The notes beneath the pieces are model-generated. The model was not told where the DNA came from, did not search any database, and was given only the letters and a program-made list of their open reading frames with translations. The translations under genes were made by a program, and so were the position numbers. Shown in pieces: positions 24,522 through 56,900 of a stretch of 64,000 nucleotides of DNA (the stretch's first letter is position 1; each line of letters begins with the position of its first letter). Where the stretch lies: contig NC_083515.1 of NCBI RefSeq assembly GCF_032362555.1, positions 4,871,001 through 4,935,000 on the forward strand, read 5' to 3'. This DNA comes from Amyelois transitella. Lineage: Eukaryota; Arthropoda; Insecta; Lepidoptera; Pyralidae.

Positions 24522-24665
24522 GTAGGCGATAGGCGAGCAACCTGTCCCTATTTAAATCTCAATTCCATTATGAAGCCATTCATCTGAATGTGGCTTTTAA
24601 TTTTTTCAAGGCCGTTTACTCTGTCTACCCCATAAGGGATATAAACGTGATTGTAATTGTATATA
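24522..24665 (+). repeat. SINE-like repeat, 3' half, with AT microsatellite
   Basis: It starts 'TAGGCGATAGGCGAGCAACC', then 'AAATCTCAATTCCATTATG' and 'CTGTCTACCCCATAAGGG', and ends 'ACGTGATTG'. A short (AT)n run at about 24660-24675 follows. Confidence 0.7.
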
Positions 24666-25729
24666 TATATATATGTATAATTAAAATTATTTAGCATTAA
24701 TTTAGTTCGAGGTACGTACTTTAATAATTCAATGTGACCAGAATAAGAAAAATTTGGGTCATTTACTATTTATCATAAAAAAGACACACAAAAAATATAT
24801 GACTTCATAAAAATGTCCGGCAGTGCCAGTTTCTCCTCATTTTAACTTATTACACAAAGGTTTTTTGTTTGGTAAAAAAAGAATAACAAGAAATATTTAC
24901 CTAATAGGTATAAGACGGAGTTAACAACTCCTATTTAGTACTCATGATTCAATGCGAATTTGAATGTAGCCAGATTCTCTATAAATTTTCAAGATTTGTG
25001 GCTTTAGACATCAGGGTCGGCTATGTAACCTTGCTACTGAAAGGAAATCGAAAGACCATTGATTCCAGCGGCTATTGTTGTGAAACGAGACTAGTTTGTT
25101 GCAAAATTTGTATAATCACCTGTACACAACGACGACAAAAACCGCTAAATATCGGTCACTGCAATTAATTGATTTACATTTTCTTGAATGTAGAAGAGCA
25201 GCATGAATTTCCTTAGTAAGTTCCTATTAAATTAGGTTCATCTGATCTCACTTACAGTCATAGGTAGGATGAAGCTAATTTTATGGCAACTAGTGAATAA
25301 GGTACATATATAAATTATAATTAAATTAAACTACTTTCATCTGTACACGATAAAAACAATGGATAATTAAAGTAGTGGCCTTAAACAAACTTGTCCGACT
25401 GGACAAAATAGAATGATAGATTTTGGACAGTAAAGAAGCGTGGTGGCGGAGGGTGCAACTGGGAACACGCAAAGATGAAATAGAATCAATCTCTCAGTTT
25501 ATTAATAACCATTGATGTAATGGTTCATTTATCCTGCCAGCAACACCGTTGGCCGAACACAAAGCAAACTGAATGATCCACAAACAATAGTATTATTTGA
25601 GTACTTAGTATACAAATACCGACAAGTCAAGAGGACAAATAAATCACGAGCAGCCATCCGGGTCCGGGAGTTTTTATAATTTTTTTATTATATATTTATT
25701 TAATGTAAATAAGGCGATCGATGACGACA

Positions 25730-33900: not shown

Positions 33901-36900
33901 AAATAGAGCCTGTATTGAATATGTTAGTTTATTTCTTGCAGATAAAATCTTACAATAGATAGATAGAAGATTGAGTAATAGTTCTTATTTTGAATTTACT
34001 AGTAACAAAACAATGGCCAGGGTATTTGTACTTAATTGAAATCAAAACCATGAATGTTTAACAACATCACATTTACTGTATAATTTTCACCCTCTTGTCA
34101 ATTGGCAGGGGTTCTAATCGCCTTATGTATGATTTTTGACCTTATTATTATTATTAATGAAACAAATCAATTTTGCGTTTCAGGGTCTCCAATGTTTTTC
34201 ACCACCGAACGTATGTCAGTGGTTGAATACATAGCGAGCCCAACACCGACCCGATCGAAGTTTGTATTTCAACAGCCTAAATTGTCCTACGAAAATAATC
34301 TATTCCTACTTTCCTTCCGAGCTGCGGTATGGTATAGCAGTCTAGCGTTGGTCTTCATAATGTTGTTAGCCATTTTCGTTGTAGCTATGTGGGAATGGAA
34401 GAAGCATGGAGATGATTTTGAATCGGTAAGATGGACGAACAGATTTAACATTTAATGATTAAGTTTGTGCCGACCAATAGGGTTTAAGCGTTTCCACCTC
34501 ATCTATCTTTACGCCTTAAATTTTTTTTGTCTTCACATTTCGCTATACGTTCCCCCTTCAAATTTGAAAATACTCAACATTACGGACCTCACTGTTTAAA
34601 TAAGGTTAGGTTTTCCTGCAAAGGTTGCGAAAGGAGTCACGTAAAAAACTGACTCACCCAATCCAGGATCCATGTTCGAAGGCATACCCGGACAAAATGC
34701 AGGAGAAATAAAACTGACCAATTTTTGAATTTATTCACTTAACTCTTATCTTATATCCTTTCTGAAAATATATTTTTCGTGGGATATTTAGGTGACGTTG
34801 TATTTTATAATCATTGGCACTGTACCTTAAAAAAAGATTTCGTTATTCGTAACAAATGTAGCAACATTAAGCTGTTCATAATTATAATATATTTTTTCAG
34901 AGAAATAAAAATTCTGGTGTCTTGCGACCTAGCATGGCTGATATTATCATTATGATATTTGGCGCTACTTGCCAACAAGGAAGTCCTGTTGAGTTAAAAG
35001 GTACCATGAAGGCGCCATGAACTTGTCTATTTAAAAATCTTTGACTACATTCCAATTGTTTTTAAATTCTGAGCAGAGTAAACAACTACTTACTTAAATT
35101 GGATACAATTTCCTAAATCTAACTTTACTTAAAAATTTCAAGCACTTTGAGGATGAAGTCACTAAAGTCCCAATAAAAAAAAATCGAATAACTCTGAAGT
35201 TTGGCAAAACACCGATAAATGCTACAAATATTTGTAGTGTACTGAATGACTTTTCTTTAAATATTTTCAGGTTCACTGGGGCGCATGGTCATGTTAATAT
35301 TGTTTCTGGCTTTAATGTTCCTGTATACATCGTACTCGGCAAACATTGTGGCTCTGCTCCAGTCGAGCTCCTCCAAAATAAAGACTCTGGAAGATTTGTT
35401 GAACTCCAGGCTCATGTTTGGTGTTCATGATAATGTTTTTAATAGATATTACTTCGCAGTAATCTCATTTTGAAATATTAATTTCATGTTCATTACACGC
35501 ACTTACATAAATGTCCTGGCAATAGTCCCATCCGATTTCGTTCTCATCTCTTTGCGGAAAGAGAGTCTGGTTCTTATATCCATTATCCTGGACTGAGTAG
35601 GTAAGGTATTTACACGAAATGACTCCCGTCTTAAACTGCAACCTTTGCAGGAGAATCTAACCCTTATCTACAAGAACATACAAATAATCTAATGAAACAT
35701 CCATACAAATCGTAGTTACCTATTTAAGTAACAGGTAGAAAAGAAAGAATCAGAGTAAAATTCATAACTCAGAAAAGAATAATTGCTGCATATGGCCGCG
35801 TTAAAATTTAAACCTGTGCCCCACTCTGCATCTCATATTCTCATTCGGACAATTCATACACTTTCTTGAGTATTTACGAAAAGTAAAATGCCGTCGATTA
35901 TTTTCAGACTGCGACTGAACCTATAAGAAAAGCTATTTATGAAAAGAAGGTGGCTCCACCTGGAGTTAAACCAAGGTTTATGACAATGGAAGAGGGAGTC
36001 AAACGAATGCAGAAAGTGAGCCTTCGATATTACGTTCTTTATGATGATCGCATGATGTTATTATACACTCACTAACACACAAAAATACTTGAAACATAAA
36101 AAATAGCCGTGTGGTTCCCGGCACCAATAAAAAAAAATAATAGGATGGAGTGGCCATCTTTTTCCCATGGATGTGGGAGAAACCTTCTTTTAGACGATGG
36201 GCTAGTAACTTGTCACTATTTGAAGCCTATCTTCAAGTCTGTTGTTCTACCCCGGAAGGAATATAGACGTGAATATATATATGTATGAATTAACATGTGT
36301 GAAGTAACATTTTACCTTTATGAAAAAAATTGGACGTTGCCTTAAGAATATCCATCAGCAAAATTATAAAAACCTTTTATTAGCAAAGATGATTGTTGGT
36401 GCCATGTCCAAGCAATACCAGAATTTAGACGACGAGGCAGCGCATATACATACCTACGTCATAAATTACTACTTCCATTTTGTTATCGGTAATTAACATC
36501 CATCAAAAGCTATTACACCAGTCCACCTTCACCTTAACAGTGCACTATAAGGACTTCGGCGTTACCACTGATAATTGTTAAGAAAATGTTATTTTCAGGG
36601 TTTGTTTGCGTTTCACATGGAGACAGGCGTCGGATACAAATTTGTGGGGAAATACTTCAGAGAAAGTGAGAAGTGCGGCTTAAAGGAAATTCAATATCTA
36701 CAAGTGATCGACCCATTTATTGCTGTGAGGAAGGATACTCCGTACAAAGAGATGTTTAAAATAGGGTAATTTACTTAAGCTCATAGTAAATACGGCAAGT
36801 AGTTCTAAGTCATAAATAGGTGTTTTTACACATAGTTTTAAAGTTCTCTTTATGCATTTTTACATTATAAAGTAAGTCGTAGTAGTAGTAGTAATTCATC

Positions 36901-37448
36901 GGTACATCGAGCCGAATTGAGTGAAAATTTAAGAGTTTTTAATAATTATGTAATAGAAAGCTAAAATTCAAATCTTTCAGCCTATATCCTACATAAAACG
37001 TGAACAGTACATGCCATTTTTTTTAATAATTCCAGTTGCACAAAGACAGACTTACCCTTTCAGGGAAGACCAAGAAAATACCTTAATAAATGATGATATG
37101 ACACGCTCGTCCGCCGCATTCATTAACAATTTTTGTTTTTCAACTTTGGCAAATAAGTGTACACTCTTTATTTTCAGATTTAAACGCATTCAAGAGCATG
37201 GCCTGCAGGCTCGCGAGAACCAGCTTTACGAGAAACGACCTAAATGTTCAGGAAGAGAGTCCAGTTTCATATCAGTGAGCATGGTGGATTGCTACCCAGC
37301 ACTGCTCATACTGTCCTATGCCATGATTTTATCGGTGATTCTTCTCTTTCTAGAGATTATTGTTCATAAAAGGCGTAGATTTATTATTTGTAACAGTCAA
37401 GAACGGCATTTCTCAATAGAACAAAATAATAATAGCTCCTTGTTATGA
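30963..37448 (+). CDS. IR-A: IR75-like ionotropic receptor
   Basis: This is a variant ionotropic glutamate receptor of insect chemosensory neurons. Exons: 30963-31116, 31201-31349, 31497-31659, 32193-32385, 33127-33299, 34184-34425, 34901-35000, 35271-35458, 35908-36015, 36599-36765, 37178-37448. They sum to 1908 nt (635 aa). A signal peptide (residues 1-19, 'LISCLFLFQILFSI') precedes an N-terminal region with 'VNCPNISDHF' and 'YRWLILDTS'. S1 carries 'WGYHLNGTWNGMTGYLV' and an Arg near residue 287 ('FFTTERMSVVEY') at the position that binds the ligand carboxylate in iGluRs. M1 is about 326-346, M3 about 396-418 with 'LYTSYSANIVALLQSS' replacing the iGluR SYTANLAAF motif, S2 carries 'KCGLKEIQYL', and M4 is about 585-607. 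Motifs such as 'FVFQQPKLSYENNLFLL' match IR75 (p/q/d-type) receptors. Intron 1 (84 bp) is free of in-frame stops, but the orthologous position is an intron in all paralogues. Ligand is unknown; the family often detects acids. Confidence 0.93.
32790..33003 (+). repeat. RTE/LINE-like 3' end in IR-A intron
   Basis: It contains 'GTAGAGATCGTTGCAAGAG', 'ATAATCTCTGCCTACCC' and 'TCCGGAGAAGAGGTGATATT', which resemble the C-terminal codons and 3' end of a common lepidopteran non-LTR element. It lies in the intron between IR-A exons 4 and 5. A reverse-strand scrap with the same 'CCTCTTAACCGGAGGGG' core lies before exon 7 of IR-B (about 42296-42322) and of IR-D (about 51332-51358). Confidence 0.5.
34598..34720 (+). 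repeat. Dispersed repeat with CCTGCAAAGGTTGCG core, IR-A intron
   Basis: It shows 'GGTTTTCCTGCAAAGGTTGC', 'CTGACTCACCCAATCCAGG' and 'ATCCATGTTCG'. It is the same family as 18690-18865 and 35560-35680. Confidence 0.5.
35560..35680 (-). repeat. Dispersed repeat with CCTGCAAAGGTTGCAG core, IR-A intron
   Basis: On the minus strand it reads 'TCTCCTGCAAAGGTTGCAG', 'AAGACGGGAGTCATTTCG' and 'CTCAGTCCAGGATAATGG'. It is oriented opposite to the copy at 34598-34720, with IR-A exons 7 and 8 between them. Confidence 0.5.
36106..36287 (+). repeat. SINE-like repeat, internally deleted, IR-A intron
   Basis: The head is GCCGTGTGGTTCCCGGCACC, followed by 'TTTTTCCCATGGATGTGG', 'GACGATGGGCTAG' and 'GGAATATAGACGTG'. 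It lies between IR-A exons 9 and 10, left of the segmental duplication, and has no paired copy. Confidence 0.8.
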
Positions 37449-37606
37449 AGACCATATATACTGGACTTATAATCATCTATAAACTATCAAATAGAAAGAG
37501 TTTTCATAGAACAAGATCTGTAGTCTGTTGATTCTGTTGTAGTATGTTAAAATTTTGATTTTTCAGTGGTGGATCCATAGAATAATCAAAATTTAAAAAA
37601 TCACAA

Positions 37607-37612
37607 AATAAA
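37607..37612 (+). terminator. Poly(A) signal of IR-A
   Basis: A canonical AATAAA lies 159 bp after the IR-A stop codon in 'CACAAAATAAAGTG'. The same context recurs at 46863-46868 after IR-C. Confidence 0.55.
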
Positions 37613-37984
37613 GTGTATGTATCTATATTTCTGAATTTTATTGCCTTTGTGTCCATCTTAAATTAGATTAAGTCTAGCACTTTACAATTACATTACAAAC
37701 AAATAAATGACCTCACTCTCGCATATCAACATATATGTATTAAAGTAGGGACAGCCTACTATCTGTAAAATCTACCCCTGTAAGTCGGTAGTGTTACGTT
37801 TGACGAACAGTTGTTAACATAAGGGACTATTACGTAATTATGAATCCAAATAAAGCAATGGTTGCATGTAATCTAAGTCAGCTGGGCAAGTCATTTAAAG
37901 CCACTAATAATGATACTTAAATCAGGGATGGTAAAATTTTTAGAATAAGATTAAGTGAACTTTTAGTATTTTTCTAAATACTTA

Positions 37985-38041
37985 CGAACTTAAAACTAGG
38001 GTGTTTTCTTGACTACAGAAAACACCCTAGTTTTAAGTTCG
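37985..38041. repeat. Perfect 25-bp inverted repeat, 7-nt loop
   Basis: The left arm 37985-38009 (starting CGAACTTAAAACTAGGGTG) and the right arm 38017-38041 are exact reverse complements with a 7-nt loop. It lies 513 bp upstream of the IR-B ATG. At the homologous place before IR-D (about 47220-47250) only 'CGAACTTAAAACTAGAG' remains and the hairpin is gone. Confidence 0.85.
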
Positions 38042-38553
38042 CCGTGTTGTTTAGAAGAATAAGGGTCGGTGATTTTAATTTTAATAGGATCTAAATTAAC
38101 ACGAAAATATTATTGGGTCCTAATTGACGGCAATGAATACATAGATTTAAAATCAACGTTACCCTAATATTTAAATTACTACGAGCTAAATAAGAAATGA
38201 AGACAAAGTACCTAAGCATAATTTAGTACTAGTATCGCTAAAGCAATGTCTTCCAGTGAACCTTAGGGTGGGAGGAAACTAATAAATAGAAAGGCGATCG
38301 GCTAGAACAAAATCATAACTCATAAAGCCCTACAAAACACACATTAGTTGTAACGTAATGAGAGAATTGGATGGTAAATTGCACTTTGTGTCTAGTCTTC
38401 AACATTTTATAATTTGGTGTAATAAGTATTGTACCTTATTAATTTGAAACTTACCTGTGCCTTGTAAGTATCTAACAAAGAAACAAGTCATTATGTAACC
38501 AGACTTATTGAAAATTATAAATTATATTTTGTAACTAACCATAAAAACGCACA

Positions 38554-41500
38554 ATGAAGAAAAAATTTTTTGTTTTAATATTTAGTTTAAATCTTTTTCT
38601 TGTGTTTAGTTTAGGAGATATAAATTTTATTGTGGATGTAATAAACTCTTATAACAAACCAGCAAGTATCCTGACAAATATCTGCAATTCTTGTAAGTTA
38701 CCTAAATATTTTTCTCAGGCAAAAAATAATTAAGTACAGTGCAAGGACTACCAAATTTATTTTAATTCTTAGTTATTTTTAAATAGGGAGCATTTATTAT
38801 CTTATTCGTTTATGGATGCTTTAGTACAGGTATTTCTATTTGCACACTCAGTTGTTTTGCGTAACTAAGAATAATCCATGTCCTTCCCTTGGATATATAT
38901 ATGTATGTATTATATACATATTACATATACATAAGTCATTCATTGTTGACGACACCCTCAAAAGGATACCCCAGTCGTGAAAATATGTATGTACCTACTC
39001 GTATATACACTTTACAATACAATGACTTTTTCAGATGTTCAACGTAATTTGGCATTGCAATTAAGAAGATATGGAACTGCAAAATCTTGCAATACTATTG
39101 ACGATGCAATTAATAAAACCCGGCTAAATCAACATAAAAACTTATTTTTTATTGTTGACGCTTACTGTTCTAACACTACTGGTTTTTTCAGAAAGGTGAA
39201 ATAAGTTTCTTAAACTTACATTTGTTAAACTCAAACTCGACGGTTTAGGATACTTTTGACCATTTTATTAATTATATTTTTTATAACAGGCCAATTCAGC
39301 CAATCTATTTGCATTTCCCAATAGATGGCTGATAATTGATAACTCTTACAACATTAGTGTTTTTATGGCTGAAGTAATGGAAAATCTAACTATTTTACCT
39401 GACTCAGAAGTAATTTTATCAAATCGTCATGATGAAGTCGTTACTTTAAATATGAGTAAGTCCATTCATTTATTTACTGTAATACAAATTCATAAAACAA
39501 TGAAAAAATAAGATGATACATTTAATTCTTTAATTATAAAGTTAAATAAATAGATAAAAAGAGAGAGAAGATAAAATATTTACCGTGTCAAGGTTCGTGA
39601 TGAGACCGCCCGATAATTAGATATGGTATCTTCTTGTAGTATCAATATTAATACATACTATATAATGGAAAGCGCTTGGGGTTAGAAGAAGTACCTAGAT
39701 CTAGATACAACTCTTAATTCACACTAAACTTGTTGAAAAGAGGTCCTAGAGACCGTGGATATTAGGACGGCTAAGAGCAGCTTTCAAAGCTATCGAGTAA
39801 GAGTAGTACACAAGTTAAATGGATTGAAGCCCCACATATAACTGCCCAATTAAAATACCCATTGCCCAAATAAGTATAAACCTCTGATATCTTAAAGATT
39901 TCCAAAAGTCCTGACCGCTTAAAGTGTGTAAGATTTTTTTGCATCCATGATAAATATAAAGGTCAACATAATATGGCGAACCTTAATCAATATTTAACCT
40001 ATCAGGTTCAATAGTAAAAAGTTAACAATTCAATTTACCTAAATATTGTAAATTTTACGCAGTTTACAAAATCACCAAAGACGATTACTGGCATGTGGAA
40101 TCATTTGGAAACTGGACAAAAAACCTTGGACTTATAAAATCCGCAGAAATGGCGATTTCAACTGCCATGAGAAGAAAAAATTTGGAAAAGAATATCTTGA
40201 CTACATCAGCAACTGCAGTAGATAAGAGGACGAGGGAGGATTTGTATGATTTACGGTAATAGCAATAATATAATAGCAGCAATAACATACAAATACCAAC
40301 ATGTATTTTTTTATCATCCTATCGTAATAGTATTATTTTGTTTAGTGCCATACAACGAATTTCGAAATTAACTTTGGGACCAGCTCCTTTCCTTTACCCT
40401 CTCATCTTTAGAGTAAATATGACTTCAAAGTAATTGTATAATTTTAATGATAGGAGTGTATTTGGCCTGCATACTTAACTGTAATTAATCAGAGCCCGAG
40501 GGAGTCTACCAATACAAAACTTACCTTCTTGTATCTAAGACATCAACATGCTACGTAACTTATATGTGTTTACTATAAGAAAGGGTTATGTTTATGTTCA
40601 TAAACGAGGCGAGAGTATATGAAAACTTGAGGAGGAGAAGGCCTAGATGAGCGTAATGATATCTATTCGGAAATGAGCTTGCACGAAAAGTCGACGACTA
40701 CGGATAAATCGAAAAATAATCTCTTTTCCCCGGGAAAGGCGACTGAATTAACTATATGTATAATATATAAAATTCTAGTTTATTATATTTCTATTTTGGT
40801 TAAATCATAATTTTAAATTTTATAGTAGTCTGCTCATAGTAGTAACATTTTCACCATTTCACAGTAACGTCGAGGTAGACACGCTTACGAAAGCAAACAT
40901 CCGCCACACAGACTTACTGTATGACTTCATGAACGCTACTAGAGTCATAAAATTTACAAATACCTGGGGATATTTTATAAATGGCTCATGGAATGGTATT
41001 GTTGGACATTTTGTACAAGGGGAAGCAGATGTTGGAGGTAAAATATTATTTAATAATCTTTTTTGCAGTAAAAAAATATGGGATCGTTTTGGATTTTTCT
41101 TGTATGTATGATTGTGGGCTAGCAACCTGTTACTATTTAAATCTCAATTTCATCTTAAGCCGAACAGCTTGGACATGGACTTACAGTCTTTTCAAAATTA
41201 CTGGCGTAATCCCGCAAGGAATATAGACGTGATTTTATGTATATATATATTATACAACAGGTGACCTTAATGCCTTAGTTCACCAGGAATAAGACATTGA
41301 TTTTATTAAATTTATCAAACAATTTAATATCACCTGAAAATTGAAATTTGTCCTAAATTCCATTAGTCATTAAAAGATTGTATCGACAGTAACACTGGCA
41401 ACTGTGAGTCTTTTATAGAAATCAGTAGGGACTATTTTGATGTAGTAAAACCACTAGTTTTATATCGGTGGAACCATTGGAAACCTTTACGGAAAGAATA

Positions 41501-44384
41501 TTCCAAATTAAATTAAACAAATTTATTTTAGTTTATGAATTTTTAAGATTGTAGATAAAAGTTTCAAATTCCAAATTAAATTAAACAAATTATTTTAGTT
41601 TATGAAGTTTTAAGATTGTAGATCAAAGATTAAAACTTGATGCTTCATTGTCAACGTTTAACTTTAGGATATACCTGTCTAGCGAGAGTGTAATTGAAGG
41701 TGTACTACACAAAGTAACTAATTTGTCTAACCATTTTATTAACTGTGTAATTTTTTTAGGAACTGTAATGTTTATAAACGAAGCCCGTCTCAGCGTTGTC
41801 CAATTTCTGTGTCACCCTTCAGATGTCACCATAGACTTCGTCTTCCGGGAGCCTCCGTTGTCGTACAATAGCAACCTGTTCCTGTTGCCCTTTAGTAGTG
41901 TCGTCTGGATGTGTATCGGTGCTCTTGTTATGATATTGATGGTGATCACTTACGTCAATGCTTATTGGGAATCGATTAAAATTAAGAAGCACATTATGAA
42001 GGTAAATATGACAAAGATACATACCTACTCATATATAACCAGTCTCCATAATGTTCTTTGTTTATACTTTTATTCTTATAGATTCATCTTTAAGATTTTT
42101 AAATGTTTCTTGAAGGGAGTCCTGGTGATTTTCTTATTGAATTAAGATTAAGAAAATCTACTACGGGCACTTGTTTCCTCAGTATTTAATATTGCTTTTA
42201 TTTTGGTATACTCTAATCTATTTATATGTATTGTCATTACTTTTATAACATATGTAAAAAGTCACTGTGGAGAAAATTAAATTAACAAATTTTAATCACG
42301 CCTCTTAACCGGAGGGGTAAGCAGGTTGATGAATAATTACTTTTCAGCAGTCTTCAGATCATACAACACTGAAACCAAATATAAGTGACATAGTTGTTCT
42401 CTTGATAAGTGCCATGTGTCAACAGGGAAGTGCTATAGAACTGAAAGGTTGGACTTATTTATATTTTGTAGTAGATAAATAACTTGTAACACGCAAAAAA
42501 AATAAAACTATATCATAATTTACTAATCTAATAAAAGTAGGAAAGTAATGTTACAAAAACATGGTCAGCTTTTGGGGAACAATGGTAGTGAGCTTACCTC
42601 TGTTTACCAATGGTTTCATCTGATCTGGTCTGATTTCAATCTTCTGTCAGGTCAAAGTGGAAAACGATATTTTCAAATCAAACTGGTTTTTGAACGCTTT
42701 TCTATTTATCTTTATCAAGTACAGTATCATTGAGTTAGTAGTCTATTACACAAATCCCGAACTTACTTTTGGATCATCTAATAATTGTTCCTGTTTTGAA
42801 TTCAGGTGGAGTAGGTCGACTGATAATGTTCCTGATATTCCTCTCGTTCCTATTTCTGTATACCTCTTATTCTGCAAGCATAGTCGCCCTTCTACAATCC
42901 AGCTCAAACAGCATTCACTCATTAGCTGATCTTTACAACTCCAAAATGGAACTTGGCGTGGAAAACATACCCTACAATATATATTACTTCACGGTAATTA
43001 TACACAATTTTTTTTAAATATTTTATTTGTAAGTGACTACGTATTTTTGAATGTATTTTTTTTTAAAGTCAGCAAAGGACCCTCTAAGAAAAGCAATTTA
43101 CGAGAACCGAGTGGCACCAAAAGGACGCAAGCCAAATTATTTAACTTTAGAAGAAGGTGTTAAGAAGCTACAGACTGTAAGTAAATAGTCGTACGAGTAT
43201 ATTCTCAAACATGCTATGTGTGTAAAACAAGTAAGGCACGGAATCCTAAAATATTTTTAAGTTATAGGTATTAGTTACTTATACCATTGGTGAAACCGAA
43301 GTCCATAAACAGAAATTTGACAACCACCCAAAATTGGGTACAGATATAATCCATGTTCTTAACATCTATGATCAATGAAAATTGAACTGAATTGATTTCC
43401 AGTAAGTTTATTGTGATACTTATAGTAATTGTACCTTCCTGTATTTATTTCGGCTTAAAATATATTTTAATTTAAATAGAAATCGATAAAGAAATAGATT
43501 TATTTTCAAAATAAGCTACAATGCCGTGTAGTTTTTGGGACCAATAAAAAAAGAATAGATTCATCTCATCATGTCGTAAAAGGCGACTAAGGGATAGGCT
43601 TATAAACTTACGACTCTTCTTTAAATCGATGGGGTAGCAACCTGTCACTATTTGAATCTTAATTCTATTATTAAGCCAAACAGCTGAACGTCGCCTATCA
43701 GTCTCTTCAAGACTGTTGACTCTGTCTTCCGCGCAAGGGATATAGACATGATTATATGTTTGTATGTATAGGATACAAGGTATGGCTTAATAAATGAGAA
43801 CTCAAGCTAGGCTTGTAAGGAATTAACAAAAAAACTGACCTATTTTTTAGAAACCATTTGCATTCAACATGAACGTCGGAGTTGGATACAGACTGGTGAA
43901 CAAATATTTCTTAGAGCATGAGAAATGCGGCTTACAACAAATCAATTATATCCATACCAGTCAAGCATTCATTGCTTGCCCCAAGTATTCTCCTTATGTA
44001 GAAATTTTTAAAGTTGGGTAAGTAACAAACATTTAAAAAAGACTATTTTTTAATATACTTTTTAAATTATCACAGCGTCAGTAACAAAAGCTTTTCTCGT
44101 ACCTATAAACTAATAAACTTGCCTTTTCTACATTTTTTATGACCACTTTCAGGTTACAAAGAAGTGTTGAACACGGTTTAATCGATCGTATTAATCGTAT
44201 CATCTTCTCGAAAAAGCCACAATGTACGAACCGAGGTGGCCAGTTCATATCAGTCAACATATTGGACTTTTACCCTATACTTTTAATGCTACTTTACGGC
44301 ATGGTGCTTTCAATCCTAATTTTATTGATTGAATTGGTAGTCCATCATAAATATACGCAATTATGTTGTCAATTTCGACATTAA
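38554..44384 (+). CDS. IR-B: IR75-like ionotropic receptor
   Basis: It has the same 11-exon structure and intron phases as IR-A. Exons: 38554-38692, 39035-39195, 39290-39455, 40063-40255, 40865-41037, 41760-42001, 42348-42447, 42806-42993, 43069-43176, 43851-44017, 44153-44384. They sum to 1869 nt (622 aa). It begins with a hydrophobic signal peptide ('FFVLIFSLNLFLVFSLG'). S1 has 'NTWGYFINGSWNGIVGHFV' and the conserved Arg in 'FINEARLSVVQF'. M1 is 'VWMCIGALVMILMVITYV', M3 has 'LYTSYSASIVALLQSSS', S2 has 'HEKCGLQQINYI', and M4 is 'FYPILLMLLYGMVLSILILL'. Exon 7 has a NAGNAG acceptor (TTTTCAGCAG), so one Gln is optional. The donor of exon 7 (G|GTTGGA) is weak. Its sister is IR-D. As a tuning IR it should be a ligand-gated cation channel subunit needing a co-receptor (family knowledge). 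Confidence 0.92.
41080..41250 (+). repeat. SINE-like repeat, 3' half, IR-B intron
   Basis: It reads 'GGGCTAGCAACCTGTTAC', 'AAATCTCAATTTCATC' and 'CCCGCAAGGAATATAGACG'. It is the duplicate partner of 50398-50566 in IR-D, so it predates the segmental duplication. Confidence 0.75.
43522..43768 (+). repeat. SINE-like repeat, IR-B intron
   Basis: The head is 'TGCCGTGTAGTTTTTGGGAC' and the tail 'GATTATATGTTTGTATG'. It is the partner of 52538-52788 in IR-D and shares the same head substitutions. Confidence 0.8.
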
Positions 44385-44940
44385 CTTAGTAATTCTTATT
44401 TTTTATTGTTAATATTATTTTTATGAGGGTAATAATAGGTTTTGACAATTAATTATCCGTAATTATTAGTAAATTAAGTTGGGAAAACTTGTTTCTCCAA
44501 TTTTAAAGTTACTTAATATAATTTGCTAATGTGCATGTAGAGATTTACGTAAAAAGTAGACTGCTTTTCGGTAAAACCAATCATTAAAGACAAAGCTATT
44601 GACTACCGCAGAGTTTTATTCAATCTATAAAGAATTATGGTGAATTACAACAAGCTCTTAAAATGAACAAACCATACTTACACATTACCCGCATTAACTC
44701 GTTTTAAAGCAAGTAAGTCTGATTCAAAAATGGGCGATATGCACGTTGCATCAATATTGTACCGAAACATTCTACAAGCTATAATTAACATGGACGCCGA
44801 GTGCCACATGCAATTACTCTAACCTGCAATCAGAAAGCGTTTACTGGCAATTTTGTCGTTAATCCTAGTATAAAATCACATAAAAGCAAGCAAAGCAATA
44901 ACAACTGAAAACGAGCTACAGAAAGCACTATCAATTAAAA
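44385..44940 (+). other. IR-B/IR-C spacer
   Basis: It contains the 3' end of IR-B and the upstream region of IR-C, and matches 53434-53993. The last 110 bp are strongly conserved between copies and include a TATA box. There is no coding sequence. Confidence 0.7.
44869..44875 (+). promoter_or_regulatory. TATA box of IR-C
   Basis: TATAAAA in 'CCTAGTATAAAATCAC' lies 72 bp upstream of the ATG at 44941. The identical box precedes IR-E at 53922-53928. Confidence 0.55.
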
Positions 44941-45410
44941 ATGAGGCTTTTATGGATGATATTGATAAGTTTCAAATATGTGGTTAATGCGAATGAAATA
45001 AAAATGATAGTTGATATCATCAAGGCTAGTGAAAAGCCAACTACCATACTGGCAAATATTTGTTGGGAACCACGTAAGTAGCTCCTACAGATTTAATTTG
45101 GTCAGATTGTTTGAATTAGATAAAAACCGTGTCTATAATATGGCAGGCAAAATAATCAATACCTAACTAATTTCTAGATAAAAAAGCCCGCTTTATTTCT
45201 GAACTAAACTCTATGGAACCGCCAAGGATGGTTCGTTTTATGAAGACTGATCTACCTTCAGATGACTATACTCGCCGAGAGCACTTGATGTTTGTTGCTG
45301 ATGTGAATTGCCCAAATATCAAAACCTTTTTCAAGCAGGTACATTTTCGTAATCTTTTTTTATTTTCGAGGATTTTTTTCATTTATTATTACACATAACA
45401 GAATACAATG

Positions 45411-45670
45411 TGCCGTGTGGTTCCCAGCACCAATAGAAAAAGAATAGGACCAATCCATCTCTTTCCTACGGATGACGTTAAAGGCGACTAAGGGAAAGGC
45501 TTATAAACTTGAGATTCTTCTGTTAGGCGATGGGCTAGCAACCTATCACTATTTGAATCTCAATTCTTTCTTTAAGCCAAATATCTGAACGTGGCCTTTC
45601 AGTCTTTTCAAGACTGTTGGCTCCGTCTACCCCGCAAGGGATATAGACGTGAGAATATGTGTATGTACGT
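45411..45670 (+). repeat. Full-length SINE-like repeat, IR-C intron 2
   Basis: The head is 'TGCCGTGTGGTTCCCAGCAC' and the tail ends 'GTGTATGTACG'. It is the partner of 54436-54706 in IR-E, inserted before the duplication. Confidence 0.85.
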
Positions 45671-45813
45671 AGATCTGGGTCGTATCCCGCAGGATGTGTT
45701 TATGCAAAAAACAACTGGAGAAAGAAGAATGCGTTAAAATACATTACATTTCATATAAATTAAATCAAATTTAACAAGCCTTGCCACAATTATTAATTAA
45801 TTCTTACATCAAC

Positions 45814-45846
45814 GCACCGCTCGAACCCATCGGATACTCAATTTAA
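45814..45846. other. 33-bp filler at deletion junction in IR-C
   Basis: This block ('GCACCGCTCGAACCCATCGG' and following bases) replaces 54900-56230 of the sister copy. The flanks match on both sides ('TCAAC' left, 'CAAAGTTTATGAGCG' right). I found no source for the filler elsewhere in the window, but the search was by eye. Confidence 0.75.
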
Positions 45847-46731
45847 CAAAGTTTATGAGCGTTTCCATTGATTGATTCTCACAAACTTCACGGGATGAGA
45901 AGCAGCTGACAAACTAGATTTTTTCTCTACAAGACCAACACAAAGCTTAAGCTGGACAAATGTTCTCAATCCTTTTAGTAGCCTTTGTAAACATTGGGAA
46001 GTTCACAAATTTCCTGTTGGTTTTCATCCAGGTACAGTCCTTATCACAACGGCGGATCGCATAGAAGTAGTAGACTACTTATCATCCCCGACGCCAATCT
46101 CGATCAAATTCGTGTTTCGGCAACCCCCGCTCTCCTACCAAAATAACCTGTTCCTGCTGCCTTTCAAGACCAGGGTGTGGTATTGCATCGGAGCTTTTAT
46201 ACTAATGCTGATTTTCATCATATATGTAAATGCCTCGTGGGAAAAGAAGAAACTGGAGCAATGCAAATCGGTGGGAAAATTAAATTGCTTATTTCGCTAG
46301 TTTTTAAGTGTGAGTCAAATCTATATATACGTTTTCTACAGGTATAACTATTAAGTTTCATTAAAATGGGCTAGACCAAGAAAAAAACCTCTATGTTGAT
46401 GATGATATGACACGCTCGTCCGCCACATTCATTAACAATTTTTGTTTTTACAACTTTGGCAAATAATTGTACACTCTTTATTTTCAGATGTAAACGCATT
46501 CAAGAGCATGGCCTGCAGGCTCGCGAGAACCAGCTTTACGAGAAACGACCTAAATGTTCAGGAAGAGAGTCCAGTTTCGTATCAGTGAGCATGGTGGATT
46601 GCTACCCAGCACTGCTCATACTGTCCTATGCCATGATTTTATCGGTGATTCTTCTCTTTCTAGAGATTATTGTTCATAAAAGGCGTAAATTTATTATTTG
46701 TTACAGTCAAGAACGTCATTTCTCAATATAG

Positions 46732-47928
46732 CTCCTCGTAATGATCATCTATAAAATGTCAAATAGAATGAGATTTCATAGAACAAGATCAGTAGTCTGT
46801 AGATTCTGTTGTAGTGTGTTAACTACCATTAAAGTAGGTAATCAAAATTTTTAAAATCACAAAATAAAGTAATATATTTTAATTGTATTGTCTTTGTGTC
46901 CATCTTAGCTTCGATTAAGTCTAGGACTATGACAATTACATTACAAACAAATAAAGGAACTCACTCTTGCATATCACCTATGTATTAAAGTTGGGACAGC
47001 CACTATCATGAAAATCCACCCCTATTCAGTAGTCTTGCGTTTGACAAACAGTTGTTAACATAAGTTACCAATTATGTAATTATGTATCCAAATAAAGCAA
47101 TAGTTGCGCGGAATCTAAGTCAGCTGAGCAGTTATAATGATACTTAAATCAAGGATGGTAAAAGTTTTGAATAAGTTTTTGTGAATTTTTAGTGTATTTC
47201 TGAATATGTAAGCAACCCGGCGAACTTAAAACTAGAGTTTTTTCTACAGTCTACCGAGTGGTATAGAAGAATTACGCGAAGGTGATTTTAATTTTCATGG
47301 ATTTAAATTAACACGCAAATATTAGTGGGTCATAATTGACGGCTCATAGTTCATAGATTGAAAATCAACTAACCCCTAATATTTAAAAAACTCTTTATTT
47401 GGTAGTGACGCCCTACGCACAGCCGACCGACTCAACATGGTCCAGGAAACGTATAATGCTTGTTTCTTATGTAGGAACAAACATTTCCGTGGTAATAAGA
47501 AATAAAGACAAAATAAGCATAATTTAGTACTAGATAGATAGTAAGAAAAAGAAAAAACAGAAAAAAAAACACTGATTATAAGGTGCAAAAGCGGACGTAT
47601 CGCTAAAGCAATCTCTTCCAGTTACCCTTAGGGTGGGAGGAAACTAATGAATAGAAATGCGATTGGCTAGAATAAAATCATAACTCATAGATCCCTACAA
47701 AACAAACATTAGTTCTAACGTAATGAGAAAATTGGATGGTAAATTACACTTTCTGTTGTCTTCAACATTTTATTATTCGGTGGAATAAGCACTGTACCTT
47801 ATTAATCTGAAACTTACCTGTGCCTTGTTAGTATCTAACCAAGAAACAGTCATAATGTAACAAGAATTTATCTTAACACTCTTTGAAAATTATAGATTAT
47901 CTTTTTTTACTAACCTTAAAAACTTACA
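46732..47928 (+). other. IR-C/IR-D intergenic spacer
   Basis: It is homologous to the spacer before IR-B. A likely poly(A) signal AATAAA lies at 46863-46868. Two insertions absent from the B spacer lie at about 47391-47491 and 47537-47595; the second contains a (GATA)n/AAGAAAAAG tail related to the repeat at 13870-13985. The frame at 47376-47588 is produced by these insertions and is not a gene. Confidence 0.6.
47376..47595 (-). repeat. LINE-like fragments inserted upstream of IR-D
   Basis: The sequence is present here but absent from the homologous IR-B spacer, so it was inserted (or lost from the other copy) after duplication. The right part has 'AGATAGATAGTAAGAAAAAG', like the reverse complement of 13940-13985. 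Confidence 0.5.
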
Positions 47929-50900
47929 ATGAACAAATTTTTTTTAGTTTTAATATTTTGTTTAAATCTTTTTCTTGTGTTTAGTTTAGAAGATATAAAT
48001 TTGATTGTGGATGTTATAAACTCTTATAATAAACCAGCAAGTATTCTGACAAATATCTGCGATCCTTGTAAGTTACCTAAATATTTTTCTCAGGCAAAAA
48101 ATAATTAAATACAATTACAGGGACTACCCAATTTATAAATTTTAATCTAAGTTATTTTTTAAATAAGGGGTATTTATTATCTTATTCGTTTATGGATGCT
48201 TTAGTACAAGTGTTTCGTAACTAAGAATAATCCATGTCCTTCCTCTAGGATCCAAAATCCTTTCTTTCTACTCCAGTTACACATACATACATATTTTCAC
48301 GAATGGGTTGTCCTTTTGAGGGTGTCGTCAACAAAGAATGACTTTTTCAGATGTTCAACGTAATTTGGCATTACAATTAGGAAGATATGGAACTGCAAAA
48401 TCATTCAATACTATTGACGATGCAAAAATTAATAACACACAGCTAAATCAACATAAAAACTTATTTTTTATTGTTGACGCTTACAGTTCTAACAATACTG
48501 AATTTTTCAGAAAGGTAAAATAAGTTTCTTAAACTTACATTTGTTAAACTCAAGCTCGACAATTTAGAATACTTTTGACCATATTGTTAATTATATTTTT
48601 ATAACAGGCCAATTCAGCCAATCTATTTGCATTTCCCAATAGATGGTTGATAATTGACAACTCTTACAATATTAGTGTTTTTATGGCTGAAGTAATGGAA
48701 AATCTAACTATTTTACCTGACTCAGAAGTAATTTTATCAAATCGTCATGATGAAGTCGTTACTTTAATTATGAGTAAGTCCATTCATTTATTTACTAAAA
48801 TACAATTTCATAAAGCAATTAAAAAATAAGGTGATACATTTAACTCTTTCATTCTGAAGTTAAATAAAAAGGGAAAGAAGATAAAATATTTACCGTGTCA
48901 AGGTTCGTGATGAGACCGCCCGATGATTGGATATGGTATCTTCTTGTGGTATCAATGTAAATACATACTATGTAATGGAAGGCGCTTGGGGTTTAAAGAA
49001 GTACCTAGATCTTGATACAAATCTTAAATCAAACTAAACTTATTGAAATGAGGTCCAAGAGACCGTAGATATTAGGTCGGCTAAGAGCAGCTTTCAAAGC
49101 TATCGAGTAAGAGTAGTACACAAGTTAAATGGATTCAAGCCCCACATAACTGCCGAATTAATATGCCCATTGCCCAAATAAGTATAAACCTCTGATATCT
49201 AAAAGATTTCCTTAAGTCCTCACCGCTTAAATTGTATAAGTTTTTTTGCATCCATGATAAATATAAAGTTCAACATATAGCGAACCTTAATCTTATATAT
49301 TTACCTAATACTAATACTCGTAGTAAATACTGAACAATACAATTTAAATATTGTAAATTTTACGCAGTTTACAAAATCACAAAAGACGATTCCTGGCATG
49401 TAGAATCATTTGGAAACTGGACAAAAAGCCTTGGACTTATAAAATCCGCAGAAATGGCGATATCAACTGCCATGAGAAGAAAAGATTTAGAAAAGAATGT
49501 CTTGACTACATCAGCAACTGCGGTAGATAACAGGACGAAGGAGGATTTGTATGATTTACGGTAATAGCAAAAAATAACATACAAATACCAACATGTATTT
49601 TTTATCATCCTATCGAAATAGTATTATTTAGTTTAGTGCCATACAATGAATCTCGAAATTTACTTTGGGACCAGCTCCTTTCCTTTACTCATCTTTAGAT
49701 TAAATATGAATTAAAAGTAATTTTATAATTTTAATGATAAGAGTGTATTTGGCCTGCATACTTAACTGTAATTAATCAGAGCCCGAGGGAGTGTACCAAT
49801 ACAAAACTTACCTACTTGTAAAAGACATCAACGTGCTACGTAACTTATACTCGTATATGTTTACTATAAGAAAGCGTTATGTTTATGTTCATAAACGAGG
49901 CGAGAGTATATGAAAACTTGAGAAGGGGAAGGCCTAGATGAGCGTAATGATATCTATTCGGAATTGAGCTTGCACGAAAAGACGACGAATACGGATAAAT
50001 CGAAAAAGAATCTCTTTTCCCCGGGAAATGGGCTTGAATAAACTTTTAATTTAATATATTAAATTCTAGTTTATTATAGGTCTATTTTTGTGTAATCATA
50101 ATAAAATTTTAAATTTAATAGTAGTCTGCTCACAGTAGGTAATAACTTTTCACCATTTCACAGTAACGTCGAGGTAGACACGCTTACGAAAGCAAACATC
50201 CGCCACACAGACTTACTGTATGACTTCATGAACGCTACTAGAGTCATAAAATTTACAAATACCTGGGGATATTTTATAAATGGCTCATGGAATGGTATTG
50301 TTGGACATTTTGTACAAGGGGAAGCAGATGTTGGAGGTAAATTATTATTTATTTAACCTTTTTTGCAATAAAATTAAATATATGATTATTTATAATATGG
50401 GATTATTTTGGATTCTTCTTGTAGGCGATGTGCTAAGCAACCTGTTGCTATTTAAATCTCAATTTTATCTTATGCCGAACAGCTGAATGTGGCGTTTTTA
50501 GTTATTTCAAGACTATATGCGTATACCAAGGAAGGAATATAGACGTGATTTGTATGTACATATGTAGGTACAATAGGTGACCTTAATGTCTTAGTACACC
50601 AGAAATAAGTCATTGATTATTGTGATAAATTAAACAAATTTATTTTAGTTTATGTAAACATTTTTCAGATTGTAGATAAAAGGTTAAAAATTAATGCTAT
50701 ATTCTCAACGTTCAACTTTAGGATACACCTACCTAGTGAGAGTGTAATCGATGGTGTACTACACAAAGTAATTATTTTGTTTTAACCATTTTTATTAACT
50801 GTGTAATTTTTTCAGGAACGGTAATGTTTATAAACGAAGCTCGTCTCGGCGTTGTCCAGTTTCTGTGTCAGCCTACAACTCTCAACGTAGACTTCGTTTT

Positions 50901-53433
50901 CCGGGAGCCTCCGTTGTCGTACAATAGCAACCTGTTCCTGTTGCCCTTTAGTAGTGTCGTCTGGATGTGTATCGGTGCTCTTGTTATGATATTGACGGTG
51001 ATCACTTACGTCAATGCTTATTGGGAAGCGATTAAAATTAAGAAGCACATTATGAAGGTAAATATGTCAAAGATACGGTCCTATATCAGTCTCCATAATG
51101 TTCTTTGTTTATACTTTTATTGTTATAAATCTTTAAGATTTTAATTGTTTCTTGAAGGGAGTCCTGGTGACCCTTAATTCAATCAGAAAATCTACTACGG
51201 GCACTAGTTTCCTCAGTATTTAATATTGCTTTTATTTTGGTATACTCTAATCTATTTATATGTATTGTCATTACTTTTATAACATATGTAAATAGTAATT
51301 GTAGAGAAAATTAAATCATCAATTTCTTATCACGCCTCTTAACCGGAGGGGTAGGCAGATTGACGGATAATTTCTTTTCAGCAGTCTTCAAATCATACAA
51401 CACTGAAACCAAATATTAGTGACATAGTTGTTCTCTTGATAAGTGCCATGTGTCAACAGGGAAGTACTATAGAATTGAAAGGTTGGACTTTCCTTATTTA
51501 TTTTTAGTAGTAGATAAATAACTGCAAAAAAAATAAAACTATATCATAATTTACTAATCTAATACAAGTAGGAAAGTAATGTTACACAAACATGGTCAGC
51601 TTTTGGGGAACAATGGTAGTGAGCTTACCTCTGTTTACCAATGGTTGAAAGATCCTGATTTCGATCTTCAGTCAGGTCAAATGGAAAACGATATTTTCAA
51701 ATCAAACTGGTTTTTGAACGCTTTTCTATTTATCTTTATCAAGTACCATTGAGTTAGTAGTCTATTACACAAATCCCGAACTTACTTTTGGATCATCTAA
51801 TAATTGTTCCTGTTTTGAATTCAGGTGGAGTAGGTCGACTGATAATGTTCCTGATATTCCTCTCGTTCCTATTTCTGTATACCTCTTATTCTGCAAGCAT
51901 AGTCGCCCTTCTGCAATCCAGCTCAAACAGCATTCACTCATTAGCTGATCTTTACAACTCCAAAATGGAACTTGGCGTGGAAAACTTACCCTACAATATA
52001 TATTACTTCACGGTAATCATAATTTTTTAATACTTTATATGTAAGCGACTACGTAATTTTTTAATGTATTTTTTTATTTTTAAAGTCAGCAAAGGACCCT
52101 CTAAGAAAAGCAATTTACGAGAACCGAGTGGCACCAAAAGGACGCAAGCCAAATTATTTAACTTTAGAAGAAGGTGTTAAGAAGCTACAGGCTGTAAGTA
52201 AATAGTCGTACGAGTATATTCTCAAACATGCTCTGTGTGTAAAACAAGTTAGGCACGGAATCCTCAAATATTTTTAGCTATAGGTATTAGTTACTTATAC
52301 CATTGGTGAAACCGAAGTCCATGAACAGAAATTTGACAACCACCCAAAATTGCGTACAGATATAATCCATGTTCTTAACATCTATGATCAATGAAAATTG
52401 AACTGAATTGATTTCCAGTAAGTTAATTGTGATACTTATAGTAATTGTACCTTCCTGTATTTACTTCGGCTTAAAATATATTTTAATTTAAATAGAAATC
52501 GATAATGACATAGATTTATTTTCAAAATAAGCTACAATGCCGTGTAGTTTTTGGCATCAATAAAAAAAAAGAATAGATCCATCTCATCATGTCGTAAAAG
52601 GTGACTAAGGGATAGGCTTATAAACTTACGACTCTCCTTTAAATCGATGGGGTAGCAACCTGTCACTATTTGAATCTTAATTCTATTATTAAGCCAAACA
52701 GCTGAACGTCGCCTATCAGTCTTTCCAAGACTGTTGACTCTGTCTTCCGCGCAAGGGATATAGACGTGAAAATATGTTTGTATGTATAGGATACAAGGTA
52801 TCGCTTAATAAATAAAAACTAAAGCTAGGCTTGTAAGGAATTAACAAAAAAACTGACCTATTTTTTAGAAACCATTTGCATTCAACATGAACGTCGGAGT
52901 TGGATACAGACTGGTGAACAAATATTTCTTAGAGCATGAGAAATGCGGCTTACAACAAATCAATTTTATCGATAACAGTCAACCATTCGTTGCTTGCCCC
53001 AAGTATTCTCCATATGTAGAAATTTTTAAAGTTGGGTATGTAACAAAATTTTTTTACATTAAGTACTTGAATTCATTTAAAAAAGACTAATTTTTATGAT
53101 GACTTTTTAATGTACTTATTAAATTATCACAGCGTCAGTTATAAAAGCTTTTCTCGTAGATATAAACTTGCCTTTTCTGCATTTTTTATGACCACTTTCA
53201 GGTTACAAAGAAGTGTTGAACACGGTTTAATCGATCGTATTAATCGTATAATCTTCTCGAAGAAGCCACAATGTACGAACCGAGGTGGCCAGTTCATATC
53301 AGTCAACATATTGGACTTCTACCCTATACTTTTAATGCTACTTTACGGCATGGTGCTTTCAATCGTAATTTTATTGATTGAAGTGGTAGTCCATCATAAA
53401 TATACACAAATATGTTGTCAATTTCGACATTAA
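47929..53433 (+). CDS. IR-D: IR75-like ionotropic receptor, duplicate of IR-B
   Basis: This is a complete sister of IR-B. Exons: 47929-48067, 48351-48514, 48608-48773, 49368-49560, 50164-50336, 50816-51057, 51382-51481, 51825-52012, 52086-52193, 52869-53035, 53202-53433. They sum to 1872 nt (623 aa); one extra Lys codon in exon 2 ('DDAKINNTQ') explains the difference. The signal peptide is 'FFLVLIFCLNLFLVFSLE'. The S1 Arg lies in 'FINEARLGVVQF', M3 has 'LYTSYSASIVALLQSSS', and M4 matches IR-B with three conservative changes. Exon 5 is identical to IR-B over 173 nt by eye. Differences cluster just after the S1 Arg (Q-P-T-T-L-N-V in place of H-P-S-D-V-T-I) and in S2 ('NFIDNSQPFV' in place of 'NYIHTSQAFI'). 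The exon 7 NAGNAG acceptor is also present. All splice sites are intact, so it should be functional, possibly with altered ligand tuning. Confidence 0.92.
50398..50566 (+). repeat. SINE-like repeat, 3' half, IR-D intron
   Basis: It is the paired copy of 41080-41250. It reads 'GGATTCTTCTTGTAGGCGAT', 'CAACCTGTTGCTATTTAAAT' and 'GGAATATAGACGTGATTTG'. Confidence 0.75.
52538..52788 (+). repeat. SINE-like repeat, IR-D intron
   Basis: It is the paired copy of 43522-43768, with the same unusual head 'TGCCGTGTAGTTTTTGG'. Confidence 0.8.
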
Positions 53434-53993
53434 CTTAGTAATTGTTATTTTTTTATTGTTTAATATTATTTTATGAGGGTTATTATAGGTTTTGACAATT
53501 AATTATCCGTAATTATACGTAAATTAAGTTGAAAAAACCTGTTTCTCCAATTTCAAAGTTACTTAATATAATTTGCTAATGTGCACATAGAGATTTACGT
53601 AAAAAGTAGATTGCTATCTGGTAGAACCACTCCTTAAAGACTACAAAGCTAATGACTACCGCAGAGTTTTATTAAATCTTTAAAGAATTATGGTGAATTA
53701 CAACAAGCCCTATAAATAAACAAACCATACTTACACATTACCCGCATTTACTCATTTTAAAACAAGTAAGTCTGATTCAAAAATGGGTGATATGCACGTT
53801 GCATCAATATTGTACCGAAACATTCTACAAGCCATAATTAACATGGACGCCGAGTGCCACATGCAATTACTCTAACCTGCAATCGGAAAGCGTTTACTGG
53901 CAATTTTGTCGTTAATCCTAGTATAAAATCACATAAAAGCAAGCAAAGCAATAACAATTGAAAACGAGCTACAGCAAGCACTATCAATTAAAA
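53434..53993 (+). other. IR-D/IR-E spacer
   Basis: It matches 44385-44940 and contains the IR-D 3' end and the IR-E promoter region. No coding sequence is seen. Confidence 0.7.
53922..53928 (+). promoter_or_regulatory. TATA box of IR-E
   Basis: TATAAAA lies 72 bp upstream of the ATG at 53994, in a block conserved with the IR-C promoter. Confidence 0.55.
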
Positions 53994-56900
53994 ATGAGGC
54001 TTTTATGGATGATATTGATAAGTTTTAAATATATGGTTAATGCGAATGAAATAAAAATGATAGTTGATATCATCAAGGCTAGTGAAAAGCCAACTACCAT
54101 ACTGGCAAATATTTGTTGGGAACCACGTAAGTAGCTTCTACAGATTTAATTTGGTCAGATTGTTTGAATTAGATAAAAAAATCAATACCTAACTAATTTC
54201 TAGATAAAAAAGCCCGCTTTATTTCTGACCTAAACTCCATGGAACCGCCAAGGATGGTTCGTTTTATGAAGACTGATCTACCTTCAGATGACTATACTCG
54301 CCGAGAGCACTTGATGTTGGTTGCTGATGTGAATTGCCCGAATATCAAAACCTTTTTCAAGCAGGTACATTTTCGTAATCTTTTTTTTTTTTCGAGGATT
54401 TTTTTATTTATTATTACACATAACAGAATACAATGTGCCGTGTGGTTCCCGGCACCAAAAGAAAAAGAAAAGGACCACTCCATCTCTTTCCCATGGATGT
54501 CATAAAAGGCGACTAAGGGATAGGCTTATAAACTTAAGATTCTTCTTTTAGGCGATGGGCTATCAACCTGTCACTATTTGAATCTCAATTCTTTCTGTAG
54601 GCCAAATAACTGAACGTGGTCTTTAAGTCTTTTTAAGACTGTTGGCTCCGTCTACCCCGCATGGGATATACACGTGATTATATGTATAAGTGTATGTACG
54701 TATGTAACAGAATACAACTAAGTACATAAATAAGATAAAAAAGAAATAGTAGAAACAGATCTGGGTCGTATCCCACAGGATGTGCTTAAACAAAAAACAA
54801 CTGGGGAGAGAAGAATGCGTTAAAATACATTACATTTCATATAAATTAAATCAAATTTAAAAAGCCTTGCCACAATTATTAATTAATTCTTAAATCAACT
54901 TAATTTTAAAACAAATTAATTCTTTAATCAAATTTCAAATGCCTTTGAAATTTAGCGTGTAGGTTTCTTATGTGGTCTACGGGTGCATTAACACTATTTC
55001 CTGGAATTCTCTCGGAGAAATTTTTCATTAACACGGGTGTAGCCGCGGACAGTAGATATACTAATTATAATATTTTTAGCTCTATTGTTTATTTTGTGAT
55101 ATTAACGCTTAGTTTTAACCAGGCTGGCGCTACGAAAAAACTAGCTTTTCCATATCGCTGGATCATAGTTGGAGGGACTTCAAATGACAGTATAGTACCA
55201 TCTTCAGTTTACAGTCTAAATCTTTTGTCCGATTCAGAAGTTATTGTATCCCATAGAAATGATGACTATTCCTTTACACTATACATGAGTAAGTATATGT
55301 ACATGAACATAATTAATTAATGTACAGTGAGTTACTTCACCTATAGGTACTTATATATTAAATTTTTACGATTTAGCCAACTATTACTAGCAAAAAATAT
55401 ACACGTAAAAGCTAACTATTTACTAAAAAAAACATATTCTCTTTCCGCATTAAAGATAATTACCATATATTTATTTTCTTTTTTCTATTAGTTTATAAAA
55501 TGAGGATCAATAGTAATTGGGTCTATGAAGATTGTGGAATTTGGACGAATGTAAATGGTTTTAAAAAATCGAAAATATTGGAACATTCTATACCAACGAG
55601 AAGGAAAAACTTCGAAGGAAATACTATTGTCACTGCTATGGTGATACTAAATAATAAAACAATGTCTGATCCCTACGATCTTCGGTGAGTTTTCATAATT
55701 GTTCCTGTTCTTTTAGTAAAATATTATAACGACTGAAAAATAGGCACCTGTAAAAACCATTTCACTTATCTTCAGTAGTTAGGTGCCCAAGTTTATATTT
55801 ATGATAACCTACGTATTATACATGAACCAGAAGAACGACTGAACAGTTTCTACCATACGATTGTGTCTTGAAACTTTTCGGTGCAGTTTAACTATGATTA
55901 AATATGAATATGTAATTGCTTAACTTTTTTAATCTTCGCAAACATAATTAAGAACTTACTTATTTTCTTTTTTAGTGATATACTAACAGACACTGTGTCC
56001 AAGAGTGGCTTTCGGCAGACTGATGCGTTATTTTTTTATCTGAACGCCACCCGGCAACTCGTTTTCAGCGAGACCTGGGGTTATTACAGGAATGGCAGCT
56101 ACGAGGGAATGGTCGCTGAAATGACCCAAGGAAATGCTGAATTATCATGTAAACTTTAGTAATATCTAAATATATAAAAGAACGCTGACTAAAAGAAGTA
56201 ACATTGGCTAGCTCTTATAAGAAAAAAAATCAAAGTTTATGAGCGTTTCCATTGATTGATTCTCACAAACTTCACGGGATGAAAAGCAGCTGACAAACAC
56301 TAGATTTTTTTATCTACAAGACCAACACAAAGCTTAAGCTGGACAAATGTTCTCATTCCTTTTAGTAGCCTTTGTAAACATTGGGAAGTTCACAAATTTC
56401 CTGTTGGTTTTCATCCAGGTACAGTCCTTATCACAACGGCGGATCGCATAGAAGTAGTAGACTACTTATCATCCCCGACGCCAATCTCGATCAAATTCGT
56501 GTTTCGGCAACCCCCGCTCTCCTACCAAAATAACCTGTTCCTGCTGCCTTTCAAGACCAGGGTGTGGTATTGCATCGGAGCTTTTATACTAATGCTGATT
56601 TTCATCATATATGTAAATGCCTCTTGGGAAAAGAAGAAACTGGAGCAATGCAAATCGGTGGGAAAATTAAATTGCTTATTTCGCTAGTTTTTAAGTGTGG
56701 GTCAAATCTATATATACGTTTTCTACAGGTATATCTATTAAGTGTTATTAAAATGGGCTCGTAGTTTTTGCGAGTTTGCATTTATATAATAAGATTAACC
56801 TCGAAGGTAGGCCTGCCTTACTGTGTGATGCATAGGAGATTGGGCATAAACATAATACTTTTCATTTCAGGAAGCCGTTGATCATACAATGTTAACACCA

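Follow-up and report, generated by a model that had tools for sequence, protein, structure and literature searches.

Head-to-tail duplication within an IR75-type receptor array of Amyelois transitella, with a predicted pseudogene at its junction

The Ir75a/b/c genes of Drosophila form a tandem array of acid-sensing IR75 receptors that grew by duplication, and overlapping transcription units have been given as the likely reason for shared signals within it (PMC7993999). In Lepidoptera, IR75p and IR75q have undergone lineage-specific expansions that include tandem duplications, and non-functionalisation after duplication has been considered for them (PMC8822749). Chimeric structures are a known product of such events. 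The copy-number variants of D. melanogaster include 11 chimeric structures involving chemosensory genes, produced by duplications that copy two genes in part and leave both parents intact, and these segregate within one species, nearly all at low frequency (PMC4910016). Chimeric structures formed through tandem duplication and exon shuffling are likewise described in D. yakuba, together with expression changes detected by RNA-seq (PMC5460883). Low divergence between Drosophila paralogues has in turn been ascribed to interlocus conversion, with raised divergence around the edges of many of the converted blocks (PMC2588116). These systems are compared here as far as the available portions of the sources go.

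The locus described here lies in a window of 64,000 nucleotides of the A. transitella genome (contig NC_083515.1, positions 4,871,001 to 4,935,000 of the forward strand), and all coordinates below are positions within that window. It is a tandem IR75-type array distinct from Ir75a/b/c, likewise enlarged by duplication, and it carries a structure in which, as in the D. melanogaster set, two genes were partly copied while both parents stayed intact. Whereas the D. melanogaster chimeras are segregating variants, the present one appears old (approximately 10% noncoding divergence), is out of frame and has been further deleted. It also differs from the D. yakuba structures in being known from sequence alone and in having no open frame, and from the available account of IR75p/IR75q, where no chimera was seen. 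No report of this locus was found in the literature on IR75 tandem duplication, chimeras or gene conversion, or on chimeras by tandem duplication; subscription papers mostly lay outside that search, which is no proof of absence.

Self-BLAST of the window (rows of at least 150 bp) yields plus-strand blocks that fall into a single collinear series, bounded by 37067, 46372|46373 and 56759 (Table 1). Base-level alignment agrees, with homology beginning at 37067/46373 and ending at 46372/56759 and unrelated sequence outside these limits. The two segments so delimited are a head-to-tail tandem duplication, at the positions proposed by an initial annotation of this DNA; the self dot-plot suggested there as a check corresponds to the present self-comparison, with its single direct series. 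The gene models also agree with the annotation on the parent breakpoints, which fall in the intron after E exon 6 and in the intron before the last exon of A. At the join between them, alignment around the edges finds no base common to both parent flanks, and the similarity of the 300 bp around the parent breakpoints does not rise above that of shuffles (local score 15, against a mean of 13.9 and a maximum of 21 in 300 shuffles). The join is blunt, within what approximately 10% later divergence allows to be said. This bluntness would favour end-joining over recombination between paralogues, as had been argued from the little microhomology visible in the sequence.

Table 1. Coordinates of genes, remnants and duplicated segments in the window
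Feature	Position	Strand	Remarks
IR gene A, 10 exons, 663 aa, open (predicted)	30963..37448	+	GT/AG at all 9 introns, no internal stop; intron 9 holds left breakpoint 37067
IR gene B, 11 exons, 622 aa, open (predicted)	38554..44384	+	gene model
IR gene D, 11 exons, 623 aa, open (predicted), duplicate of B	47929..53433	+	93% aa identity to B
IR gene E, 11 exons, 621 aa, open (predicted)	53994..58350	+	intron 6 holds right breakpoint 56759
Remnant C, E-type exon 1	44941-45073	+	match to E
Remnant C, E-type exon 2	45178-45338	+	match to E
33-bp filler marking loss of E-type exons 3-5 from C	45814..45846	+	alignment with E
Remnant C, E-type exon 6, phase 0 at end	46032..46270	+	match to E
Remnant C, A-type last exon, entered in phase 2	46488..46731	+	match to A
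SINE-like insertion common to 54429-54702	45404..45671	+	self-BLAST, same left flank
Self-BLAST block	37067-38175 / 46373-47387	+	79% including gaps
Self-BLAST block	38232-41319 / 47597-50638	+	86%
Self-BLAST block	41577-45671 / 50626-54702	+	91.6%
Self-BLAST block	45847-46372 / 56231-56759	+	97.9%
Duplication unit 1	37067..46372	+	end of A intron 9, A last exon, whole B, 5' part of E copy
Duplication unit 2	46373..56759	+	self-BLAST, base-level alignment
Duplication junction between E intron 6 and A intron 9	46372..46373	.	0 bp microhomology

The intact genes A, B, D and E are predictions from sequence, their exons placed by similarity between paralogues and by GT/AG sites, and all introns of the four models are GT-AG. 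Each model matches both PF24576 (IR75A_N) and PF00060 (Lig_chan) at E<=0.01, and A and B exceed the curated cut-offs for both; PF10613 matches as well, with a score under its cut-off in A and B. The best 60 of the 242 PDB sequences that match A are glutamate receptors. On these matches the four are predicted IR75-type ionotropic receptors, the family to which the array had already been assigned. B and D share 93% protein identity, and the remaining pairs 41-47%. An arginine, R315 of A, is invariant in all four proteins and is a candidate equivalent of the S1 arginine to which the carboxylate of the ligand binds in glutamate receptors. Judged by their family, the four are probably tuning receptors of the acid-sensing type. 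B and D differ in short protein runs in exons 6 and 10 (SDVTI/TTLNV and YIHTSQAFI/FIDNSQPFV), which belong to the ligand-binding lobes, and these runs are possible candidate sites of altered tuning; the first 100 codons of the pair show more difference overall. Searches of exon A1 against plasmids and of protein A against viral contigs gave no match, and neither set was expected to hold insect genes. Elsewhere in the window, minus-strand open frames at 5600-10230 resemble transporter exons, and one of these frames, 8543-8800, is matched by MFS_1; presumably they are SLC17-like.

Between B and D lies a remnant, here called C, that retains 4 of 11 exons, namely E-type exons 1, 2 and 6 and the A-type last exon. 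Alignment with E reveals that 1331 bp (54900-56230, containing exons 3, 4 and 5) are represented in C by 33 bp of filler, for the source of which a search of the window returned nothing past 9-bp words. Exons 7-10, which from homology to glutamate receptors we take to encode the pore and the second ligand-binding lobe, were never inside the duplicated unit; they are absent from C because the E breakpoint follows exon 6 and the A breakpoint precedes the last exon. C exon 6 finishes in phase 0 whereas the last exon is entered in phase 2, so that splicing over the duplication join gives a single codon before TAA; joining exon 2 to exon 6 breaks the frame as well. Eight exon combinations starting from C exon 1 were tried, each extended into genomic sequence. 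None of the products exceeds 133 aa, a length reached by exons 1 and 6 running into the intron, and 0 of the 4 combinations that include the last exon read its membrane segment in frame, which led to rejection of C as a coding hybrid. No open frame crosses the fusion, and ligand-binding and pore exons do not stand in one frame as in an IR75-type receptor.

The structure of C thus fits a chimera by tandem duplication, with the 5' part of one gene joined to the 3' part of another while the parents remain intact, and it fits an unprocessed (duplicated) pseudogene, with introns kept, exons 3-5 deleted and exons 7-10 absent. With 4 of 11 exons and broken frames, C is predicted to be no hybrid receptor but a pseudogene of the duplicated type. 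The initial annotation was right about the present order A-B-(E/A)-D-E and about the joining of an E-type 5' part to an A-type 3' part, but it overlooked the deletion of exons 3-5, the absence of exons 7-10 and the phase mismatch. Its hybrid gene cannot be upheld, given the missing pore exons and a stop after one codon of the A-type last exon. From the layout, the phase clash and the lack of pore exons would date from the duplication itself, and the deletion of exons 3-5 is most likely later, as E keeps these exons. A dispersed repeat (about 50-95 bp aligned) is present at 56231-56320 in E and at 45847-45930 in C, where it starts near the right deletion breakpoint; it has relatives on six other contigs.

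The units also share two SINE-like insertions, at 43517/52533 and 45404/54429, each with the same left flank in both units. Such placement indicates that the insertions are older than the duplication, and independent insertion in each unit was rejected on the same ground. Between the units the two differ at 10/253 and 24/268 positions, respectively. Rfam and ARAGORN returned nothing in the window, and the available portions of the SINE literature, including PMC3272025, supplied no name for the element, so that it is called only SINE-like here. In unit 2, one copy is followed by 61 bp (54696-54756) that start like the target-site repeat, AACAGAATACAA; these 61 bp are absent from unit 1 (at 45670). 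Further full or partial copies, approximately 69-84% like the others, occur at 36106-36224, 14679-14833, 24509-24681 and 59514-59751. A 67-bp unit is repeated twice in an intron of B (41500-41635), and the aligned D intron lacks 63 bp of this repeat together with the 199 bp just before it. Shared exons, introns and SINE-like insertions are as the initial annotation had listed them, and its shared promoters are borne out as shared upstream sequence only.

Divergence between the units is uneven along their length. Noncoding divergence, counted after exons and columns near gaps were dropped, although alignment in gap-rich introns may still inflate it, amounts to 96/813, 109/814 and 111/1089 in three left blocks and to 33/948, 41/605 and 56/786 in three right blocks (316/2716 against 130/2340; p=4e-14). 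Overall it is 10-13% over approximately 5 kb on the left, with patches of 1.5-4% on the right. The longest identical noncoding run is 131, against a permutation mean of 72, and the window variance is 75.5 against 11.8, each reached in 0/1000 permutations; the run test joins noncoding columns across exons and does not separate a left-right difference in rate from conversion tracts. Finer counts with exons included give 12/635 for 44741-45403 and 8/526 for 45847-46372, with the SINE-like insertion that differs at 24/268 between them. For the B/D pair, Ks is 0.070 and Ka 0.032, and synonymous divergence falls from approximately 0.12 in the first 218 codons to 0.04-0.05 in the rest (Fisher p 0.019, from rounded counts). 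A single event followed by even divergence was rejected by the left/right contrast and the permutations. That one event explains everything, as had been proposed, holds for the layout; the deletion in C is separate, and the unevenness suggests later conversion or exchange between the units as the simplest addition to one event. Here the left edge is high and the right edge low, and the low right edge is not what the edge pattern in the available part of PMC2588116 predicts.

The exons of C carry 14 differences, fewer than the approximately 26 to be expected under neutrality from the duplication onward (Poisson P 0.008). This expectation is rough, being built on a B/D ratio of about 0.45 for a constrained partner and on flanks adjoining each exon with the SINE left out. 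Most of the deficit comes from the A-type last exon, which differs at 7/257 positions where its flanks differ at 34/352 (p=5e-4), 7 differences in place of an expected 18. For exon 6 there is 1 against 4.2 expected, and exons 1-2 show an excess, 6 against 3.8. Around exons 1-2 the nearest noncoding sequence differs at 6/341 and the exons at 6/294, an equal likeness that favours conversion there. The low divergence of C's exons counts against C having been neutral since the duplication, and conversion from A may explain the last exon.

Several other readings bear on these patterns. Uneven constraint or mutation rate, in place of conversion, would be compatible with the duplication itself and accords with low-divergence patches that take in exons and upstream DNA. 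It is the less likely reading, though with an appreciable probability; against it stand the SINE-like insertions, expected to be neutral, which differ at 10/253 and 24/268 between units, and the drop of B/D synonymous divergence along the gene. It is quite improbable that C's exons are in use, with 46488-46731 serving as an alternative last exon of A spliced over B, or C exons 1-2 as an alternative start of D or E. Joining A exon 9 to 46488 keeps the frame (654 aa), as do C1-C2-D3 to D11 (620 aa) and C1-C2-E3 to E11 (621 aa), all predicted; the overlapping transcription units offered for the Drosophila array make alternative use of the last exon not absurd (PMC7993999, available portion). If this were so, the broken fusion would survive as an exon source for neighbouring receptors. 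Little credence is due to C as a functional hybrid gene, now or until recently, for which the few changes in its exons (Ka 0.012, Ks 0.031, 12 codon-level differences) and the 4 sites that differ from E in the 200 bp upstream of its exon 1 would speak. It lacks 7 of 11 exons including those of the pore, both internal joins break the frame, and the likeness of the noncoding DNA next to exons 1-2 indicates conversion rather than coding constraint, while the adjoining SINE, outside that count, differs at 24/268.

The duplication itself might be false, two haplotypes having been set in tandem by the assembler, and a head-to-tail misjoin would give the same junction picture. Against this, the units differ by 10-13% in noncoding DNA across the left 5 kb, and B/D Ks stands at 0.12 over the initial 218 codons, values that would be high for alleles; the window contains no N and its contig spans 11.4 Mb. 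A search of the genome assembly (327 Mb, 33 contigs) with 520 bp taken as a probe from the right end of unit 2 found 8 places, only two of them near full length and both expected, the other six covering 47-76 bases. Misassembly of haplotypes is unlikely on these grounds, and we give it very little weight. Least probable among the readings is an origin by NAHR, with A and E recombining through related introns or repeats, even though these paralogues lie in direct orientation with SINE-like copies nearby: the joined introns differ, one following exon 6 and the other preceding the last exon, and the breakpoint score within the range of the shuffles led to rejection of homologous recombination there.

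The history that we regard as very probable is a head-to-tail duplication from A intron 9 through B to E intron 6, yielding an extra B-like gene and a pseudogene, with later exchange between the units. The ancestral order, to judge from the parts that C carries, would have been A-B-E, giving A-B-C-D-E. The segment would have been copied by blunt end-joining or by a replication-based event, a mechanism suggested by the lack of homology at the join, and the outcome would have been an extra full gene, forming the B/D pair, and the fusion C of a 5' E fragment with a 3' A fragment. This fusion would have been non-coding for a receptor from the start, through its missing exons 7-10 and the clash of phase 0 with phase 2, and would then have lost exons 3-5 in the 1.3-kb deletion. 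The units presumably drifted to approximately 10-13% noncoding divergence on the left, with low patches arising by conversion or exchange, and the lasting effect would be a B/D pair free to diverge. The predicted net gain is one extra B-like gene, D, and one pseudogene.

The process is already known, and what is new is a well-resolved case of gene-family evolution. It also carries a warning, in that automatic annotation could list C as a fifth, hybrid receptor. Resolved to the base, the locus represents an odour-receptor array in which a single event would have produced both an added gene and a failed fusion, and whose copies may exchange sequence afterwards.
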